A stretch of 39,838 nt of DNA from Deltaproteobacteria bacterium (lineage in GTDB: Bacteria > Myxococcota_A > JAADFL01): positions 1 to 39,838 of the forward strand of contig JAADFL010000113.1 of NCBI GenBank assembly GCA_013152945.1, written 5' to 3'. Every line of letters begins with the position of its first letter. Positions within the stretch are counted from its first letter, which is position 1. Below, piece by piece: positions 8,046 through 39,838 of the stretch. Position numbers and translations under genes: made by a program. The notes below the pieces were generated by a model. The model was not told the DNA's origin, ran no database searches, and saw only the letters and a list, made by a program, of their open reading frames with translations.

Positions 8046-8094
8046 TTCAAGGGAGCGATTGGCATTAATGCACCTTATGGCAGGGAGAATGATT

Positions 8095-11000
8095 ATGAGG
8101 ATATTTATTTTTTCAAGAATAAAACGCTCTATTTTTGATATTTTTTTTACTTCCCATGCATTACGGAATAAAAACATTCTTTCGAATCTGGTTGCTGTGT
8201 CACTTACAGCCGCTCTCCTATGGTCCACGGGATGTACGAGTATCGGATCGGCATCCCTGGAAATCAATTTTCCGGATGAGCAGGCCCGTCAAACTACAAA
8301 ACGACTTGACCTGTACGTATTGAAACCAACCTTCGCGGATTGCAGCGATCTTTTGGCCGGATCCGTATCCCCGGAGACCGGCGCCTCCGATGTCGTTTTC
8401 AAGGCATCGATTCAATACCCGGGCGGAGGCAGCTTGCCCAATATACCTACCGGAAAACAAACATTTTTCTTACAAGCATTCGGGGCGAACACATTGCCTC
8501 TACTCAGAGGCTGCAATGTTGCAAACGTGAGCCAGGAAGGAACGGTGAACATTGTAATCAATCTCAAGTGGGTCTGCATACCTAAACAGGAAGTATGCGG
8601 CAATAACAAGGATGATGATTGCGACGGCCGGGTGGACGAAGACTGTCCAAGCTGTACATCGGACCGACAATGCATCGATGACAACCCTTGCACCATAGAC
8701 TTGTGTCTTGACGGTGATTGCCATCACAACAACTTTCCAAAAGGAACCTTTTGTTCCGATCAGGATCCCTGCACGGTTGACGATAAATGCATTGACGGCA
8801 GGTGTGCCGGAACACCCAAGGATTGTTCCGCCTTTGACGGGACATGTAAGAAAGGTATATGTGAACCGTCTACAGGGGAATGTAAAGCCTTGCCAATCGA
8901 TGACAACAGCAAATGTGACGACGGACTTTGGTGTACAATAGATGATGTATGCATCAAGGGTGAATGCACCGGTACCCCGAGAGATTGCTCTGATGATGAC
9001 GATCTTTGCACAAAAGATACATGCGTCGAAGGCACGGGAGATCAGGGACATTGCGAGCACGCCCTGGTGCCGCGGCCTGGCAGGGAGGGCCCTCCTGGAA
9101 GTGATTCCTGCTCGAACGGTAAAGATGATGACTGTGACGGAAAGATAGACACAGAAGATGCAAGCTGCATCGGATGTACTGCGGACGGTGATTGCGATGA
9201 TCAAAATCCCTGCACCGAAGACAAGTGTGAAAACTTTGTGTGCAAGAATGATATCAAGCACGATGGAACAAAGTGCGAAGACGGTCTTTTCTGCACAATC
9301 GGAGACAAATGTGAATCAGGTGTGTGCAAAGGAGAGCCGAGAACATGCGAAGAGGTCGAGGACAACTGTCATGACGGTATATGCGTAGAAGATCAAGACA
9401 AGTGCATACCCAAAGAAAAACCCGATAATACGGATTGTGAAGACGGTCTATATTGCACTGTGGGCGACAAGTGCCAGGCGGGTGAATGCCGTGGCAGAAC
9501 ACGGGCCTGCAATGACAACGATCCTTGCACCGTGGATTCATGCGATGAAGATTCCAGATCGTGTGTAAATGACCTTGAGCCGCAACCGGGAAAGGAGGGG
9601 CCGCCGGGATCTACATCATGTATGAACAAGTTGGATGATGATTGTGACAGGCGAATCGACCTCGATGATCCCGACTGCATCGAATGTACTTCAGACCAGG
9701 ATTGCGATGATCGGAATCCATGCACAACCGATAAATGTACCTTGGGAAAATGTACGAGCACCAATGTAAAGAATAACACGGAATGCGACGACGGCTTGTA
9801 TTGCACGGTTGATGACAAATGTGAATCAGGTAAGTGCAAGGGCTCTGCCAAGGATTGTTCCGCCCTGGACGATCCTTGCCACGAGGGCATATGCAACGAG
9901 GACAAGAAAACTTGTGAAGCAATGTACAAGGGCGATGGAGTGGAATGCAATGACGGTCTGTATTGCACGGTAAATGAAAAATGCGATGGCGGCTCTTGCA
10001 AGGGATCCCCGAGGGACTGTGAGGATAATGATCCATGCACCGAGGGTTCGTGCAATGAAGACCTGAAAAAATGCGTGCAAACCGTGGTGCCCAATCCCGG
10101 AGCCGAAGGGCCGCCGGGGCACGGGAGCTGCAGCGACCAAAAAGACAACGACTGTGACGAACTGATAGACCTGGATGATCCGGACTGCGTGGAGTGTGTA
10201 CTTGCCGCAGACTGTAACGATTCAAATACATGCACTGACGATACATGTGACCACGGGGTTTGTAGGCACACTCCCGTTAATGACGACACGCCTTGTAACG
10301 ATTCACATTTTTGCAATGGGGATGATTATTGCCAGGCAGGCACATGCTCGAAGCACGACGGGAGTCCTTGTTCGGATGGCTTCGATTGCACACAGGACCT
10401 CTGTGACGAAGATAAGGACATGTGCTCCAATCTTGTTACGGCGGGAAAGTGCCTAATCAACGGCACATGCTTCAATGACGATGAACAAAACCCGGCGAAC
10501 CAATGTGAAAAATGCGATCACTCGACAAACCCCAAGGCATGGACATACAGGGGTGACGACACGCCTTGTGACGACTCGTTGTACTGTGATGGAAACGATT
10601 ACTGCCAGGCAGGCACATGCTCGAAGCACGACGGGAATCCTTGTACGGATGGCTTCGATTGCACGGACGACATCTGTGATGATGTCAATGATTCCTGCTC
10701 AAACCCGGTTACGGCGGGAAAGTGCCTAATCAGCGGCACATGCTTCAATGACGATGAACAAAACCCGGCGAACCAATGTGAAAAATGCGATCACTCGACA
10801 AATCCCAAGGCATGGACCTGGGCGCCGAAGCCCTGGAAAATGGATATCTGCGGAAACGGCATCGATGAAGACTGTGATGCCGTGCCGGACGGTTGTTGCA
10901 TGGGAGATGGAACTTTTCAGAATCGAACTACTACTCCTATAGGCGCGGATCCCTGGTTCATTATTGCCGGCGACTTCAATGAAGACGGAATAGACGACTT

Positions 11001-13179
11001 GGCCACTGCAAACAAGAATAGTTCGTCCGTTTCCGTGCTCATCACGGGCGGAACTGCCGGCAAGGGAGACGGGACCTTCACAAGGACTCCTGCAGGCGAC
11101 TACGGCACCGGTGGAACCACCTATGGCATTATTACTGCTGACATTGACGGTGACGGGCATCTCGATCTCGTTACAGCAAACAACTCAAGTGCCAGCTCGG
11201 TTTCGATCTTCTGGGGCAAGGGTGATGGAACATTTGTCAACAGGCTGGACATTCCGATCAACGGAAACGCCACTTTTCCCACCACAGGCGATTTCAATGA
11301 AGACGGCAACATGGACATCGCCGTCTCTGCATACACTGACAATGTAGCGGTCTTGCTTGGAAACGGCGCTTCCAGAAGCTTTTCCACTCCTGTGTACTAT
11401 TCCATCAGTGGTCAGGCCTCGAACGCCAGGTCAATTGCCGATGGGGATTTCAATGGCGACGACATATTGGACCTGGCAGTAGCAGCCTTCGGCTCCGGCA
11501 ATGTAACAATCCTGTTCGGCAATGGATCCGACGGCATAGGCAACGGCACATTTTCAAATCCTACCGCAGCCAGCACGTTTACTGCGTGTAGCGGACCGAC
11601 CAACATCATCACAGCGGACTTCAACCAGGATGCTATAAAGGATATAGCCGTCTCTTGTATGAACGCAAACAAGATAGGCATCCTCATTGGAAAAGGAACC
11701 GACGGGCGCGGTGATGGCACTTTTGAAGATGCCGTTCTCTATGATTTCGGTTCTTTTCCCGTCTCGGTTCATGCAGCGGATTTGAACTCGGACAATATAG
11801 ATGATTTGGTGGTTGCCGAATGGGGGACAGGGGCAATCGGAATCAGGCTTGGAAACAGCATAAACGGCCATGGCGATGGAACCTTTGGATCCGGGAACTC
11901 GTTTGCCGTAGGATCCAATCCTGCTGCGGCAACTGTACTGGATGCAACGGGCGACCAGATACCGGACATTGCATCCGCCGACAACGTACCGGACTCAATC
12001 TCACTTTTGGAGGGCCACGGAAGCGGTGCAACTCCTGGCTTCGGTTTCGTAGAATCATTTACATCCAATCTCGCCGGAAAACCGGTTTGTTTACAAGCCG
12101 GTGATCTTGACAGCGACAACATTCCGGACCTGGCCTTTTCACAGGAAGACGTGCATAAGGCGGCAACACACAAGGGAGGAGGTACTAACGGCAAGGGAGA
12201 CGGAACATTCCTGGCCCGGTGGAGTGGTGACACAGGTGACACCACGCTGCCGGCCTGGATTGAGATCACAGACCTCGACAAGGACAGTGTATCAGACCTG
12301 CTCATCGCACTGCCGGGGAGTGGATCGGTCGGCATATTCAAAGGTCAATCAAGTGCAGGTTACCCTGACGGTTTGTTCGATCCTGTTTCAAGCATTTCCT
12401 CGGGAACAGGCTCATTGCCCAAAATGGCGATTGCAGCGGATGTCAATGAAGACGGAATCCCGGATATACTCGCCGCAGACGAGACAGGCTACCTGGTAGT
12501 ACTCATAGGCGGGGGAACCGGTGGAGTCCCTGACTTCACATTCGGATCGCCAGCCGCCTATGCAGCCGGCAACGGCGTGGTGTCCCTCGCGGCGGGTGAC
12601 TTGAACGGCGACGCCGTACTGGACGTGGCCTTGGCTGCAAGGGACGATGATGCAGTCAGTATCATGCTCGGTAATGGTTCAGGAGGCCTGGGTGACGGCA
12701 CATTTTACCCTAATCCGACTGCAGCCGAGGTGCCGGTCGGAAAGGCCCCGGTTGCCGTCCAACTTGCCGATTTGAACAACGACGGAATCTTGGACCTCGT
12801 CACTGCAAACAGGGACGACGACACCCTGAGCATAAGGCTGGGCAACGGCTCATCCGGACGTGGAGACGGCACCTTTACCGGCCCTGCAACGCCGAACCCG
12901 GTTGCAGGCAAATCACCCACGGCAGTGGCTGTATTCGACCTCGATGTGGACGGCATCCCGGACCTAGCTTGCGCAGACAGGGATGACGGCACGGTTTCCG
13001 TGTTCAAAGGCTTGGGAGATGGCGCATTTGCAGCCAGGGAGGTAATAACGGTCGGAGGTTCTCCGAACGGCCTGGTAGCCGGCAACTTTGACTGGGATCA
13101 CAGGCCGGATATAGCTGTTATTGATTCATCCCAAGACCTGCTTTTAATTCTCAGGGGCACAGGGACATGCAATCCATAG
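8095..13179 (+). CDS. Giant lipoprotein: Cys/Asp-rich MopE-like region plus 14 FG-GAP repeats
   Basis: 1694 residues. ATG 8095 is chosen because AGGGAG (8082-8087) lies 7 nt upstream; TTG 8059 and ATG 8089 are worse placed. A long basic leader ends in a lipobox WSTGC (Cys47), so export and lipid anchoring are expected. From about residue 167 to 935 the protein is Cys/Asp-rich. It has modules like CDDGLYCTVDDKCESGxCKG and five MopE-like CxNxxDDDCDxxxD motifs, acidic motifs thought to bind metal (calcium or copper have been suggested for relatives). From about 935 to the end I count 14 DxNxDGxxDLxxAN repeats of the FG-GAP/VCBS type, enough for two seven-bladed beta-propellers. This suggests a surface adhesion or binding protein; the ligand is unknown. 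A 273-bp unit is duplicated almost identically inside the Cys-rich part. The gene is monocistronic, with pyrG 173 nt downstream. Confidence 0.9.
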   Translation: MRIFIFSRIKRSIFDIFFTSHALRNKNILSNLVAVSLTAALLWSTGCTSIGSASLEINFPDEQARQTTKRLDLYVLKPTFADCSDLLAGSVSPETGASDVVFKASIQYPGGGSLPNIPTGKQTFFLQAFGANTLPLLRGCNVANVSQEGTVNIVINLKWVCIPKQEVCGNNKDDDCDGRVDEDCPSCTSDRQCIDDNPCTIDLCLDGDCHHNNFPKGTFCSDQDPCTVDDKCIDGRCAGTPKDCSAFDGTCKKGICEPSTGECKALPIDDNSKCDDGLWCTIDDVCIKGECTGTPRDCSDDDDLCTKDTCVEGTGDQGHCEHALVPRPGREGPPGSDSCSNGKDDDCDGKIDTEDASCIGCTADGDCDDQNPCTEDKCENFVCKNDIKHDGTKCEDGLFCTIGDKCESGVCKGEPRTCEEVEDNCHDGICVEDQDKCIPKEKPDNTDCEDGLYCTVGDKCQAGECRGRTRACNDNDPCTVDSCDEDSRSCVNDLEPQPGKEGPPGSTSCMNKLDDDCDRRIDLDDPDCIECTSDQDCDDRNPCTTDKCTLGKCTSTNVKNNTECDDGLYCTVDDKCESGKCKGSAKDCSALDDPCHEGICNEDKKTCEAMYKGDGVECNDGLYCTVNEKCDGGSCKGSPRDCEDNDPCTEGSCNEDLKKCVQTVVPNPGAEGPPGHGSCSDQKDNDCDELIDLDDPDCVECVLAADCNDSNTCTDDTCDHGVCRHTPVNDDTPCNDSHFCNGDDYCQAGTCSKHDGSPCSDGFDCTQDLCDEDKDMCSNLVTAGKCLINGTCFNDDEQNPANQCEKCDHSTNPKAWTYRGDDTPCDDSLYCDGNDYCQAGTCSKHDGNPCTDGFDCTDDICDDVNDSCSNPVTAGKCLISGTCFNDDEQNPANQCEKCDHSTNPKAWTWAPKPWKMDICGNGIDEDCDAVPDGCCMGDGTFQNRTTTPIGADPWFIIAGDFNEDGIDDLATANKNSSSVSVLITGGTAGKGDGTFTRTPAGDYGTGGTTYGIITADIDGDGHLDLVTANNSSASSVSIFWGKGDGTFVNRLDIPINGNATFPTTGDFNEDGNMDIAVSAYTDNVAVLLGNGASRSFSTPVYYSISGQASNARSIADGDFNGDDILDLAVAAFGSGNVTILFGNGSDGIGNGTFSNPTAASTFTACSGPTNIITADFNQDAIKDIAVSCMNANKIGILIGKGTDGRGDGTFEDAVLYDFGSFPVSVHAADLNSDNIDDLVVAEWGTGAIGIRLGNSINGHGDGTFGSGNSFAVGSNPAAATVLDATGDQIPDIASADNVPDSISLLEGHGSGATPGFGFVESFTSNLAGKPVCLQAGDLDSDNIPDLAFSQEDVHKAATHKGGGTNGKGDGTFLARWSGDTGDTTLPAWIEITDLDKDSVSDLLIALPGSGSVGIFKGQSSAGYPDGLFDPVSSISSGTGSLPKMAIAADVNEDGIPDILAADETGYLVVLIGGGTGGVPDFTFGSPAAYAAGNGVVSLAAGDLNGDAVLDVALAARDDDAVSIMLGNGSGGLGDGTFYPNPTAAEVPVGKAPVAVQLADLNNDGILDLVTANRDDDTLSIRLGNGSSGRGDGTFTGPATPNPVAGKSPTAVAVFDLDVDGIPDLACADRDDGTVSVFKGLGDGAFAAREVITVGGSPNGLVAGNFDWDHRPDIAVIDSSQDLLLILRGTGTCNP
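10281..10826 (+). repeat. 273-bp tandem duplication inside the giant lipoprotein gene
   Basis: Copies run 10281-10553 and 10554-10826, an in-frame unit of 91 codons. The last 108 bp or so (from 10435 and 10708) differ at only about two positions, while the first part has diverged more. In-frame length and near identity suggest a recent duplication or gene conversion of one Cys-rich module. Confidence 0.85.
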
Positions 13180-15134: not shown

Positions 15135-18100
15135 CTACCTGCGTTCAGCTTCGAAGTTCCAAACGCTCATACAACCTGCAGGCCACGGGAATTCACCACC
15201 CGGGAACTGGCTCGGACAGGATGGTCCGGTAAACTCTCCCAGCTTGATCTCGAATGAACCGATCAGCCTTTCGTCGACCAGGTCCGCAGAAAACACCATG
15301 TCCAACGGGACAGCGCACTCACTCTCATCTCCCAAGACAAAATGATTGGTGCCGTCGAAATGGTTCCCGGTCACAGTGCCTCCATCCACAAGGAATGGAT
15401 CGTCGAATTCTTCTGTTGCAGTATTGATTGAAAAACTTGTTCCCTCTTGAACCAGGTTCTTCAGAGAAATCATAGGCGCCCCGTCAGGCGGATACACGCA
15501 TGATGTTTCACCTGGTTTATCCTTGAAGAGTCCGGAGAACAGCCATGTTCCGGAAATGCCCTCTCCTTCAATACATTCGCCATGCGCACAAACCTTGGAG
15601 TCATTGCTGCAATTCCGGTAATCGACCCAATAGCCGTCGGTACAGCCTGCTATGCTTTGATTATCGCAAGTTATTTGCTCACGGAAAAGGTTGGAATCAT
15701 CACTGTTACAGGGCACGCATGTGCAGGCACCTCCCTCTGCGCATCCGCAATTCATACCCATATCCCTGCACCTGGTGGAGATTTCCCACGTCCCGTCTGC
15801 ATTGCATTCGAGTAGACGTGAATCATCAAGACAACGGGTATCCCCGGGCGTGCAAGGGCCGCAGGCCGCTTTTTCATTCTGTACCATGCAGGTCCCGGAT
15901 GCGCAGTAATCGACCTCTTTCCATGCACTGTTGATGCACTCCTGCACCTTCGACGGATCGCCGGGATCACACCTTGTGGCGCCTTCGTCGTAACATTGGG
16001 ACAAACAATCCCCATCAACACAAACCTGGTATTTCCCACAATAGTTTACGGGAGTATTCCTGCCGCTCACACACTCCATCGGCTGTCCATGCACACATGA
16101 AACATCTCCTTCGCCGGTGCACGAGTAATCATCATTCGTACATTTCGTTCCATCCTTGTCACACTTGTCTCCCGGGTCACACGAATACAGAACATGAAAC
16201 CTTCCATCCCATCCACACATCAGGACTTGGCCGTTATTACAGGACATCTCGCCCATTTCACATCCCCACCAAGGCGGCCGCCTGCATGAGCCTTCATAGC
16301 AAGGAACAGCCGGATCCCGGCTGGAGCAATCCTCTTGCTCGCTCCAGGCTCCCTGGTCGCACACGTACACTATGTCCGAAAGGCAGGCTGTAAATCCCTG
16401 ATCCTCACATCCGCCATCCGGTTCCCGGCAATCCCCCATGTAACAAAGCAGGCCTTCGGCCCCGCAATCACGCGCGGGCAGCATCCTACCCTGATCGTTA
16501 CACTTGAAAACATTGTTCTCGAAGCATGTAGTTTCACCCATGTTACACGGATCCGTGCATTCGAGTTCGGCCGGGTTGCAAACCTGCGGCGCATTGCATT
16601 CCTGCTCTACGGCCCACCTGGAATACACATCGCATTTCATCAGGTTATCACCGTTGCACATTTCCTGGCCTGTACTGCACTGCGCAGGAGCCTCAACACA
16701 AACCGCGTTCCTGCAATCCATGCCTGTGTCATCGCAATTTTCGTCTTCCTGCCATGCACTGTCCACGCATTTCATTATACTGCGTTCCATGCACCCGGTT
16801 TGTCCATCCTGGCACGAAGCATCCAGCTTTTCACATTGTCCATCCGCACAGAATTTCCCCTGGTCGCCGCAATGCTCCTGGAATTCGTACACACCTGTAT
16901 TTGCGTCACACTTCCATAAATCACTCCCCCTGCATTCGAAATCACCTTGTTGACAGGGCTTGATGCAAGTCATGTCCTCATCAGAACAAATCAGGCCTTC
17001 CAATTTGCAGTCCCTGCTAACATACCATTTCTTGTCCTTGCTGCATTTCATAACCGCGTCATCATGGCAGGCAGTGGTTCCCCGGTCACATGGCGTGTCC
17101 AAACATTCACCTGATTTGCATACCTGGCTGAAATCACATTCATGTACCAAGGTCCACACACCTGCCTGGCACTCCATCACCTGTGTTCCCCTGCACGCCT
17201 TCATTCCATCCCGGGTACATGCCTCTTCGAATTCATGGCATGCATCTTGATCGCAAACCAATCCGGATTCGGCACAATTCATGACAGGCAGAAATTGGCC
17301 TGTACCCGAATCGCATTGATACAAGACATCTCCCCTGCAGACCTTTTGATCATCCGATGTACAGGAATCTACGCAATCTTTCATGACAGGATCACACACC
17401 TTGCCGTTAGTGGAGCAGTTTTCCTGGTTCGTCCAATAACCATTCTCGCACTTCTGCAACACGTCGGTATCACAAGTATGGTCACCTTCTTCGCACGGCG
17501 CCAGGCAATCGTCTTCATCCACCTCCCCGTCACAATCCTCGTCCACTCCGGTACCGCATAGCTCCACGCCCTTTGCCGTGCATTCATAACGCCTCGCCTT
17601 TATGTCCCAATATACCTTGCAAGGTCTGGGCGTTGGGAATCCATTTATCGAGTGCGTTATGTCACATGCCCCCTCCCCTTCACTGAAATCCATTGTCCAT
17701 GTGCCTGTCAGCCATCCATCATCACCCAAAATCAGGTCCAAAGTGCTGTGAACCTGGATAGTGCATTCCAGCGGGGCATTACCAATGACCCAATCCTGGA
17801 CACTATCGGCTTGGAGCCTATTCTGGTTGACTGTTCCATTGGTTATGGAAACCGGCGTGTCATCATCTCCTGTTTCAACCAAGTTGAAGGAATTCCCTGT
17901 TTGATCTATTTTCACTACCCACGTGCTGGGCTCGGTAGGCGCCGGCCGGCTGCACGAGTCCTGGTTTTGCTGCACCTCGCCCAACACCTCCCACAGTCCG
18001 TCGAATGCCTGACCGTCAACGCATTCATTGATGTTACAAAATTGGTTGCTGGCGGCACAATTGATGCCGTCCTTCCATTCCCCTGCCATACATGCCTGGA

Positions 18101-18392
18101 TGATATTACCCTTGCATCGAAAACTTCCTTCCTTGCAAGCCACGCAGCCTGCCACAGGATCGCAAATCTTTCCCTGTTCTTCACAGTTCTTGATTTCCAC
18201 CCACTTGTTTTCTTCACACTGGGCCAATATGCCGAGTCCACATGCCTGCTTTCCTTCTTCACAAAGCCTGCATACGCCATCCCTGCAACCAAGACCATTG
18301 CAATGCTCCAGGGGTTCGAAACTTCCATTCTTGCATTCCAAGACCCATGAGCCATCCCGATTGCATGCGGTTTCTCCATCATTGCATGGCAA
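15135..18392 (-). CDS. Cys-rich surface protein body (separated from its signal peptide by a frameshift)
   Basis: 1085 residues in this frame, but the apparent TTG start at 18392 is very unlikely to be the true one. Deleting one base at 18416/18417 joins it in frame to the lipoprotein signal and Asp-Thr stalk ending at 18379, giving one protein of 1228 residues (15135-18822). The body is a long array of six-to-eight-Cys modules of about 45-50 residues (pattern CxxGxxxCxxxxLxxCxxxxW...C...G..C). Two homologous non-repeat domains interrupt and end it, at about 131-270 and 945-1085. A MopE-like motif (CGTGVDEDCDGEVDED) follows the first. A role at the cell surface is likely, but I recognise no specific function. 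As it stands the body has no export signal and would not be correctly expressed. It could also be a decaying gene or an assembly error. Confidence 0.8.
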   Translation of the reverse strand: MPCNDGETACNRDGSWVLECKNGSFEPLEHCNGLGCRDGVCRLCEEGKQACGLGILAQCEENKWVEIKNCEEQGKICDPVAGCVACKEGSFRCKGNIIQACMAGEWKDGINCAASNQFCNINECVDGQAFDGLWEVLGEVQQNQDSCSRPAPTEPSTWVVKIDQTGNSFNLVETGDDDTPVSITNGTVNQNRLQADSVQDWVIGNAPLECTIQVHSTLDLILGDDGWLTGTWTMDFSEGEGACDITHSINGFPTPRPCKVYWDIKARRYECTAKGVELCGTGVDEDCDGEVDEDDCLAPCEEGDHTCDTDVLQKCENGYWTNQENCSTNGKVCDPVMKDCVDSCTSDDQKVCRGDVLYQCDSGTGQFLPVMNCAESGLVCDQDACHEFEEACTRDGMKACRGTQVMECQAGVWTLVHECDFSQVCKSGECLDTPCDRGTTACHDDAVMKCSKDKKWYVSRDCKLEGLICSDEDMTCIKPCQQGDFECRGSDLWKCDANTGVYEFQEHCGDQGKFCADGQCEKLDASCQDGQTGCMERSIMKCVDSAWQEDENCDDTGMDCRNAVCVEAPAQCSTGQEMCNGDNLMKCDVYSRWAVEQECNAPQVCNPAELECTDPCNMGETTCFENNVFKCNDQGRMLPARDCGAEGLLCYMGDCREPDGGCEDQGFTACLSDIVYVCDQGAWSEQEDCSSRDPAVPCYEGSCRRPPWWGCEMGEMSCNNGQVLMCGWDGRFHVLYSCDPGDKCDKDGTKCTNDDYSCTGEGDVSCVHGQPMECVSGRNTPVNYCGKYQVCVDGDCLSQCYDEGATRCDPGDPSKVQECINSAWKEVDYCASGTCMVQNEKAACGPCTPGDTRCLDDSRLLECNADGTWEISTRCRDMGMNCGCAEGGACTCVPCNSDDSNLFREQITCDNQSIAGCTDGYWVDYRNCSNDSKVCAHGECIEGEGISGTWLFSGLFKDKPGETSCVYPPDGAPMISLKNLVQEGTSFSINTATEEFDDPFLVDGGTVTGNHFDGTNHFVLGDESECAVPLDMVFSADLVDERLIGSFEIKLGEFTGPSCPSQFPGGEFPWPAGCMSVWNFEAERR

Positions 18393-18822
18393 GGTATCTG
18401 TCCCGGTGTCTGTATCCTGTATCCGTATCCGTGTCTGTATCTGTATCCATGTCTGTATCTGTATCCGTGTCCGTGTCTGTATCCGTATCCGTATCTGTAT
18501 CCGTGTCTGTATCCGTATCCGTGTCTGTATCCGTATCCGTGTCTATATCTGTATCCGTGTCTGTATCCGTGTCCGTGTCTGTATCCGTATCCGTGTCTGT
18601 ATCCGTATCCGTGTCTGTATCTGTATCCATGTCTGTATCCGTATCCGTGTCTGTATCTGTATCCGTGTCTATATCCGTATCACCATTTCCTCCACCAGAG
18701 GACGTGCATGCTGACATGAAAAAAGGCATTGCTGTGATGACCCACAGGTAGAACAATAATCCTCCCAACGAAACCGAGCCGAACATTGTTCCTATACGAG
18801 CTTGTTTCTTCAAACTCATCAT
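18379..18822 (-). CDS. Lipoprotein signal plus Asp-Thr stalk; 5' part of the frameshifted gene
   Basis: 147 residues from ATG 18822 (AGGGAG about 7 nt upstream; ATG 18819 is also possible). A hydrophobic signal ends in FMSAC, a slightly unusual lipobox with Met at -3, then SSGGGNG. About 44 Asp-Thr dipeptides (a few Asp-Ile or Asp-Met) follow. The frame then shifts at an extra base (C 18417 on the plus strand), runs through GYRHRDRYLAMQ and stops at 18379, overlapping the start of the Cys-rich body. Without the extra base the stalk continues as DTDTGTDTLPCNDGE into the body. Asp-Thr stalks occur in myxobacterial-type surface proteins as extended linkers. Confidence 0.75.
   Translation of the reverse strand: MMSLKKQARIGTMFGSVSLGGLLFYLWVITAMPFFMSACTSSGGGNGDTDIDTDTDTDTDTDTDMDTDTDTDTDTDTDTDTDTDTDTDTDTDIDTDTDTDTDTDTDTDTDTDTDTDTDTDTDTDMDTDTDTDTDTGYRHRDRYLAMQ
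18405..18682 (-). repeat. Hexanucleotide array encoding the Asp-Thr stalk
   Basis: Roughly 45 tandem imperfect hexamers (GATACG, GATACA, GACACG and similar on the minus strand). Every unit keeps the 6-nt register except at 18416-18417, where one extra base sits between two units. Arrays like this change length by replication slippage in multiples of six, which keeps the frame; the 1-nt change does not. Antisense open frames across this array are repeat artefacts. Confidence 0.95.
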
Positions 18823-19147
18823 TCTTCTCTCCCTTAATCCAGTGTGATTTTCTAAAAACATCGACCAATTAAGTAATAAACAAAATAACTTGTGTCAAAC
18901 TCTATAAAACGACTGCGCTTCTTTGACCGCTGGCGGCAGGGGCCGGGATTTGCATGGATGATGCGTATATTCTTAAAAATCCGATCCCGTCCCCCTGTGT
19001 GTCATCCGGTTTTAGTACGTATTCAACATATTGATATCACTAGCATATACAACTACAGGTAAATCAACCTGGGTGGGATTGGAAGAGAAGTGAGGGAGAT
19101 TAGAAAGAACTGGGGATGGATTGAACTAAAACTTGATCGGAATTGTT
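18823..19147. other. Intergenic region upstream of the frameshifted lipoprotein gene
   Basis: 325 bp between the stalk lipoprotein start and the end of the 5'-nucleotidase gene, both on the minus strand. A perfect -35 hexamer TTGACA reads on the minus strand at 18898-18893; at 17 nt spacing the -10 is poor (TACTTA), so promoter function is only possible. The part from about 19061 carries a motif also found at 39357. No gene or RNA was recognised. Confidence 0.6.
19061..19077 (-). repeat. Copy B of a dispersed intergenic motif
   Basis: Reads CCCACCCAGGTTGATTT on the minus strand, an exact 17-nt match to 39357-39373 on the plus strand. Similarity extends several bases further into CTTCCA with one gap. 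Both copies are intergenic, just beyond the 3' ends of genes. Confidence 0.7.
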
Positions 19148-37232: not shown

Positions 37233-37316
37233 AAGGCAAACTGTGCAAAAATTTAATTACTGGCGCCAAGATGTCGCCTCGAATATGTGTGCTCAAACCT
37301 TGAACAGGAGTCTGTC

Positions 37317-38402
37317 ATGAAAATTTTAGCAGCTTTGGTTCTGCAGGTAATGCTCTTATCGCCTGCACTGGCTGCCGAAGTGGAGCTGATCGACGACTCA
37401 CTCGATCACTCCACGACAGGCATTCGAGAGGGAGGAGCATTCCTCGAATCCGGCGGGTGGCAGGCAAAAGCCGGAAAGAACGTCAGGATAACTTATGACC
37501 TGGGCAAAGCGTATTCTGCCGGAAGGTTCAGGGTAAATGTCAAGAATTTCCTGCCCTGCGACCAACCGAACAATGAAAAGTGTCACATCATGACCATGTG
37601 GCAAAGTACAAACCAGACCAGGGGCTCGGCAAAGGACGCTGGAGAATCCTATTGGATATTCAGAACAGGCAGCAATTATTTCGGCCCTCCTTGTCACTAC
37701 AAATTCCTGACGCGGCCTGTTGGAGCGGACACCGTACCAAGTGACGAGGCAAGAATCGACCATGGCTTCAACTGGAAAGCAAACGCCACATATTCATACA
37801 CAGTTACCTGGGATGAATCAGGATATATAAGCCTAAAACGAGGCTATCCAGGTGGAGAAAACGTAATATATGAACATCACCACAACAAGCCGATCAGGTT
37901 ACGTTATCTTTTGATAGGTAGAGACCATGAGACCAAGCCCAATTACGGAGAACAACCAGGTGTTATTTACTCCAATGTCAAGGTATGGGTAAAAGAGGAT
38001 TCAGGTGATACGGATATCGACATAGACACTGATACGGATATCGACACGGACGCTGATACAGATACTGATACGGATATCGACACGGACGCTGATACGGATA
38101 CTGATACGGATATCGACACGGACGCTGATACGGATACTGATACGGATATCGACACAGACGCTGATACGGATACAGGTGGAGATACAGATATTGATACTGA
38201 CAGTGACAGCGATACAAATATAGGCTGTAGGTACGACAGCGATTGCGAGAAAGGTCTGATTTGCGTGGACGGCACTTGCAAATCCGGAGTTGGTTCAAAA
38301 GACTCTGGCTGTGCTTCGACAGGAGCACATGGTTTTGGTCCGGCTGTCTTGTTATTACTTGCCTTACATCTTGCACACCGATGGCCGCCTCACCGAAGTT
38401 GA
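37317..38402 (+). CDS. Surface protein: lectin-like domain, Asp-Thr stalk, Cys module, C-terminal anchor
   Basis: 361 residues from ATG 37317 (AGGAG 7 nt upstream). A signal peptide ends at PALAA. Residues of about 22-230 are beta-rich and resemble concanavalin-like or carbohydrate-binding folds (VRITYDLG, YTVTWDESGYISLKRG, IYSNVKVWV); this is a weak recognition. An Asp-Thr/Ile/Ala stalk follows, built on a 36-bp DNA repeat, then the EB-like CRYDSDCEKGLICVDGTC. The end has GCAS, a hydrophobic stretch (GPAVLLLLALHLA) and a basic tail, resembling the MYXO-CTERM sorting layout. This suggests surface display. It shares the stalk idea with the gene at 18822 but is anchored at the opposite end. Confidence 0.82.
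   Translation: MKILAALVLQVMLLSPALAAEVELIDDSLDHSTTGIREGGAFLESGGWQAKAGKNVRITYDLGKAYSAGRFRVNVKNFLPCDQPNNEKCHIMTMWQSTNQTRGSAKDAGESYWIFRTGSNYFGPPCHYKFLTRPVGADTVPSDEARIDHGFNWKANATYSYTVTWDESGYISLKRGYPGGENVIYEHHHNKPIRLRYLLIGRDHETKPNYGEQPGVIYSNVKVWVKEDSGDTDIDIDTDTDIDTDADTDTDTDIDTDADTDTDTDIDTDADTDTDTDIDTDADTDTGGDTDIDTDSDSDTNIGCRYDSDCEKGLICVDGTCKSGVGSKDSGCASTGAHGFGPAVLLLLALHLAHRWPPHRS
38031..38174 (+). repeat. Four tandem 36-bp repeats encoding the Asp-Thr stalk
   Basis: Copies at 38031-38066, 38067-38102, 38103-38138 and 38139-38174 are nearly identical, each 12 codons (pattern DTDIDTDADTDT). Degenerate hexamers flank the block on both sides. The length is a multiple of three, so gain or loss of a copy would leave the frame intact. 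Confidence 0.93.
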
Positions 38403-39671: not shown

Positions 39672-39727
39672 TCACCTCCGTCCCCTCAATCGTCCCCTCA
39701 ATCCCCCTCACCTCCGTCCCCTCAATC
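39672..39727. repeat. 20-bp direct repeats with a partial copy between
   Basis: TCACCTCCGTCCCCTCAATC occurs at 39672-39691 and at 39708-39727. A partial copy (GTCCCCTCAATC) lies directly after the first. On the minus strand the unit reads GATTGAGGGGACGGAGGTGA. Repeats of this style often flank small transposase-type elements, but no such gene is visible in the window. Confidence 0.85.
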
Positions 39728-39838
39728 ATCCAATTGATACAGGAGGACGCGAGCCAGGCGCGGCCTTGCCTTACCCGCCTTGGTCGGGCCAGCTCTGCCT
39801 CGGCCCTCCCCGTCGTGCTTCACTACGCCGCGCCGTTC

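Follow-up and report, generated by a model that had tools for sequence, protein, structure and literature searches.

The minus strand of the window, as we call the whole 39,838-nt stretch of DNA analyzed here, carries a putative lipoprotein gene (18822..15135) whose reading frame is broken at 18417, inside a repetitive stretch that encodes an Asp-Thr stalk. Is this break a switch, a loss of function, or a product of the assembly, or are the two halves separate genes? The open reading frames, together with the order of parts in a paralogue (C67, see below), delimit a whole gene that comprises a signal, an Asp-Thr stalk, and a Cys-rich body. All features of the gene given below lie on the minus strand.

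The start is ATG 18822, which by eye is immediately preceded by a GGGAG-type ribosome site. Inspection by eye also points to a signal-peptide-like segment (18822..18706), in which a hydrophobic stretch is followed by MSAC, a candidate lipobox of a relaxed kind with Met at −3. The putative lipidated Cys, to which the lipid anchor would be attached, is the codon at 18708–18706. From 18681 to 18418, the sequence is organized in an Asp-Thr array of 264 nt, which corresponds to 44 hexamers in one register without change. The units are GAYACN (Asp-Thr), with a few GATATA or GACATG, so that some Asp-Ile and Asp-Met are encoded. Counting the register leaves over a single G at 18417, which disrupts the hexamer register along with the reading frame (a net change of +1, +7, or −5). 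This G is followed by GATACA GACACC GGGACA GATACC and then by the body frame.

The upstream frame, a 160-aa ORF from 18861, runs past the break into an out-of-frame tail (18417..18379), GYRHRDRYLAMQ, and ends at the stop at 18379. The body frame reads DTDTGTDTLPCNDGE past the break and is open to 15135 with no earlier stop. The body ORF (15135–18392) is 1,085 aa long when counted from a TTG, and the span 18822..15135 amounts to 3,688 nt, or 3 × 1,229 + 1. These counts bear out a sequence-only reading of the locus, which had described a 5′ frame with about 44 Asp-Thr in strict 6-nt register, a loss of frame near 18416/18417 with a stop at 18379, a 1085-residue Cys-rich body in the other frame, and exactly 1229 codons upon removal of one base.

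Judged from sequence, the two halves are one gene that has been split, because the C67 paralogue has all of the parts in one frame. This paralogue (L061:4520-5917) is the only other match to the body in the organism's own genome and forms an intact frame of 465 aa. Its order of parts is signal plus Cys, Cys-rich segment, Asp-Thr array, Cys repeats, and an A/B-type domain (BLASTP of domains A and B of the body to the C67 protein, 2e-7 and 9e-6). The signal plus Cys, the array, the repeats, and the A/B-type domain are common to both genes, whereas the C67 gene is shorter, carries the Cys-rich segment 5′ of the array, and is in frame. The same order in one frame also supports the earlier claim of a single gene split by a frame-breaking change in its stalk array. 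A 601-aa frame of genome G014 has, in our reading, Cys repeats that an acidic linker joins to a start like that of a lipoprotein. The body was matched in 16 of the 95 genomes searched (own genome included), and the best match outside the own genome in this search (E 8.0e-21) extends to the Cys repeats only. An ortholog of the body was found neither among these 95 genomes nor by a body scan of further genome contigs, in a compared set where both the genus and the class are represented by the own genome alone.

The body features 116 Cys in 1,093 residues, and the Cys-rich protein would be surface exposed. Sequence comparison and a two-repeat model resolve the region 18386..15567 into Cys-rich repeats of ∼45 aa with six Cys each (18386–18015 and 17588–15567), between which domain A is located (18014..17589). 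Domain B (15566..15138) forms the C terminus and is a second copy of domain A by sequence comparison (26% identity, E 9e-12). The AlphaFold2 model of domain A is all-beta with a mean pLDDT of 79.2 from an input alignment of two rows only, and the model of two Cys repeats has a mean pLDDT of 89.4. Neither domain A nor the Cys repeats had a match in PDB fold searches at E ≤ 0.001, and therefore we claim no ligand. A Pfam search of the body found no domain, and an NCBIfam search found no family at E ≤ 0.1. Cys-rich tandem repeats are shared with TraA of myxobacteria, for which a rigid surface stalk has been proposed (PMC3325183). The split gene differs from TraA in that its body matches no NCBIfam model at that threshold and in that it is without a MYXO-CTERM tail.

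At the break, the string GATACG GATACA G GATACA GACACC can be read as carrying one additional G, as repeating GGATACA in tandem (a 7-nt duplication), or as having lost 5 nt from one unit. The indel is defined only as a net change modulo 6, the length of the repeat unit, and +1, +7, and −5 are equivalent. The "one extra base" of the sequence-only reading is thus the smallest description of the change and is not established as the mutation. No second, frame-restoring indel was found, the upstream frame being continuous to the break and the body frame continuous to its stop. Within the array, a 45-nt stretch is repeated exactly, and stretches of 30–35 nt recur without mismatch in other sampled arrays. 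Among the 40 of 141 candidates that were scored, the best full-length match of the array in the rest of the genome has 84% identity, and a 97-nt piece of the array matches C163 at 92%.

The draft of the own genome (G000) comprises 218 contigs that total 4.84 Mb and is 94.3% complete. With 1,764 windows of four Asp-Thr hexamers, it ranks first among 188 genomes of the phylum; the next-highest genome has 534 (>3-fold fewer), and 128 of the 188 have none. In 71 stretches (871 kb, part picked for bearing arrays), we counted 47 merged arrays, two of which are broken inside according to a scripted frame count; the break in the window lies at an array edge and falls outside this count. Within the own genome, Asp-Thr arrays are found as stalks after a lipobox-like Cys, inside proteins, or before C-terminal tails. 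Literature searches on Asp-Thr arrays returned nothing on point.

In the staphylococcal Sdr/Clf adhesins, a Ser-Asp region acts as a stalk. Like these adhesins, the split gene encodes an acidic stalk of dipeptides, which presumably holds a domain away from the surface, but its anchor and body are different. Membership in the MSCRAMM Sdr/Clf proteins was rejected, as the SdrC model scores 46.2 bits, in the array region only, far below the curated cut-off of 1,700. The window encodes a second Asp-Thr protein (37287–38402), which is intact and terminates in a Cys-containing hydrophobic tail with a basic end; it is weakly similar to MYXO-CTERM proteins (18.8 bits versus a cut-off of 500). Further repeats in the window comprise the FG-GAP repeats of a 1,706-aa protein (8059–13179), a 273-nt tandem repeat within the gene of that protein (10324–10817, 1.8 copies, 90%), and a 12-nt tandem repeat of 4.4 copies close to the window end (39679–39731).

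Interruptions of the register were sought as 1–5 leftover bases between two perfect units on either side, a pattern that misses breaks beside degenerate units because it requires the perfect units on both sides. Internal truncations of a unit were covered by an N{2,6} pattern, and unit-end deletions (−1 or −2 at the unit border) were not found. Across the own genome, the interruption pattern gave four matches against the 1,764 intact windows and none in a reversed control; the register interruption in the array is not due to chance. One of the four (C44, leftover of 3) is in frame, and three break the frame, with leftovers of 1 (the gene in the window), 4 (C163), and 2 (C185). Both C163 and C185 (L059 and L060), with the breaks near 16743–16769 and 44318–44342, respectively, exhibit a signal-bearing N terminus with a DT array, followed by a body that resumes in the DT frame, which for C185 contains an Lcl_C domain.

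The other 187 genomes contain 67 interruptions, 63 of them with a leftover of 3. The G145 family (22 genomes, 11 of which are already among the 187) adds 44 more, all with a leftover of 3. In a hand count from the listings, the frame is kept in 107 of 111 interruptions outside the own genome, and therefore the frame of Asp-Thr arrays appears to be kept by selection, with breaks being rare. Of the four out-of-frame cases, one splits a lipoprotein-like gene inside its Asp-Thr array in G145 (L171, ∼3810), a genome from another family of the phylum, and the other three, all in G167, fall outside clear genes. Counted per interruption, the own genome is an outlier in frame breaks (3 of 4 versus 4 of 67, p 0.002). 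It is not special per intact window, since the rates there do not differ (3/1,764 versus 4/3,870, p 0.69). In six of the seven interruptions that break the frame (three in the own genome, three in G167, and one in G145), the sequence includes an exact duplication in tandem whose length is the one needed. However, chance duplications of length 1 and 2 modulo 6 occur at 19 and 13, respectively, of 194 intact array positions used as a control, so that the duplication is weak evidence for the break in the window.

As a baseline outside arrays, 451 proteins from relatives were aligned to a 1.12-Mb sample of the own genome. No frameshift was detected in the 94,085 bases covered by homology, a small baseline (94 kb) in which the detector, which needs two good alignments, misses breaks near gene ends. 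The sole candidate for a change of frame was rejected, as we read it as two neighboring genes separated by a stop, a kinase followed by an apparent response regulator. The contrast of 0 breaks in 94 kb of non-array sequence with 3 in ∼16.4 kb of array (an estimated length) corresponds to (16.4/110.5)^3, or ∼0.003, and to ∼0.02 without the break in the window; it is post hoc and small. It speaks for an array-linked process rather than a general base-call error. Contig ends are also enriched at arrays, with 7 of 132 sampled ends lying within 150 nt of an array versus 1.25% expected (p 0.0015, ∼4-fold). Asp-Thr arrays are indel-prone, either in the molecule or in the assembly.

The locus is very probably an ordinary surface-lipoprotein gene whose frame is broken by a short indel in the stalk array, either as a broken allele or through a false break, and not a switch. 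Lipid anchor, long Asp-Thr stalk, and Cys-rich body would together form one lipoprotein of an Asp-Thr-rich genome, in whose low-complexity arrays small indels collect via polymerase slippage or poor assembly. Translation of the allele as written from ATG 18822 would yield no more than an anchored stalk ending in 12 junk residues and would not include the body. Recent inactivation and assembly error, which the sequence-only reading had also proposed, are about equally probable.

There is a nearly even chance of an assembly or consensus error, in which the true molecule is in frame and the slip was made during assembly or polishing over the array. The draft state of the genome, the clustering of contig ends at arrays, the exact repeats of 30–45 nt around the break, and the retention of frame in nearly all interruptions of other genomes are in line with such an error, as is the finding of breaks in the own genome only inside arrays. 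However, the net changes of 4 nt at C163 and 2 nt at C185 are not single-base miscalls, and with a best full-length match of 84% for the array among the candidates scored, a chimeric join is not obvious.

A genuine and recent loss-of-function indel, caused by slippage in the array, has a probability slightly under one half. We propose that such a loss would be tolerated because the genome has many Asp-Thr surface proteins. This explanation is favored by the exact tandem duplications at the frame-breaking interruptions, by a body whose 1,085 codons contain no other stop or shift, as expected of a young break, and by the comparable split gene in the unrelated genome G145. On the other hand, duplications of length 1 or 2 modulo 6 also arise by chance, the three breaks of G167 lie outside clear genes, and the one genome of the genus that was compared carries the broken allele.

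It is unlikely that the arrays constitute a genome-wide hotspot that uncouples bodies from anchored stalks and maintains a population mix of bare-stalk and full proteins; such a hotspot could represent slow diversification by slippage of hexamer arrays, not a true switch. The reversible on/off switch (phase variation) that the sequence-only reading had considered is very unlikely to operate here. The site does combine a surface protein with repetitive DNA, as do contingency loci such as the tetranucleotide tracts of Haemophilus influenzae, where a length change also breaks the frame of a surface-protein gene, and the own genome has two more split array genes. In the split gene, however, the unit is 6 nt, so that gain or loss of a unit keeps the frame, and the break has no non-triplet tract. 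Within 18379–18861, 7-nt units reach at most two copies and units of 4, 5, or 8 nt at most one; no long homopolymer is located at the break, a T6 run being situated in the signal region. Moreover, no two of the three breaks share a net length, and a single allele is observed. According to a Haemophilus survey, hexanucleotide variation in coding DNA changes the sequence without giving phase-variable expression (PMC2651432). Two separate genes, or production of the body by programmed frameshifting or by re-initiation at TTG 18392, are extremely improbable despite the proximity of this TTG to the stop at 18379, as the body frame has the stalk residues DTDTGTDT upstream of the TTG, the Cys-rich product would have no signal, the C67 paralogue is one frame, and no slippery motif was seen by eye.

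The broken allele or false break that we favor resembles frameshift indels in Mycobacterium tuberculosis, where single indels break genes in association with low-complexity DNA, at sites that the authors warn are prone to assembly error (PMC8339072). It differs from the frameshift scars of that species in being without a second, frame-restoring indel and in being known from one genome. What stands out in the own genome is how many Asp-Thr arrays it has; the gene itself is an ordinary one, broken or falsely so. Should the break be an error, one surface protein would be entered as two false genes in the catalogues of such genomes, and genes with arrays would merit checking. If it is real, the stalk array would be a weak point of a large set of lipoproteins. 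Either way, the locus advises caution against calling every broken repeat gene phase-variable.
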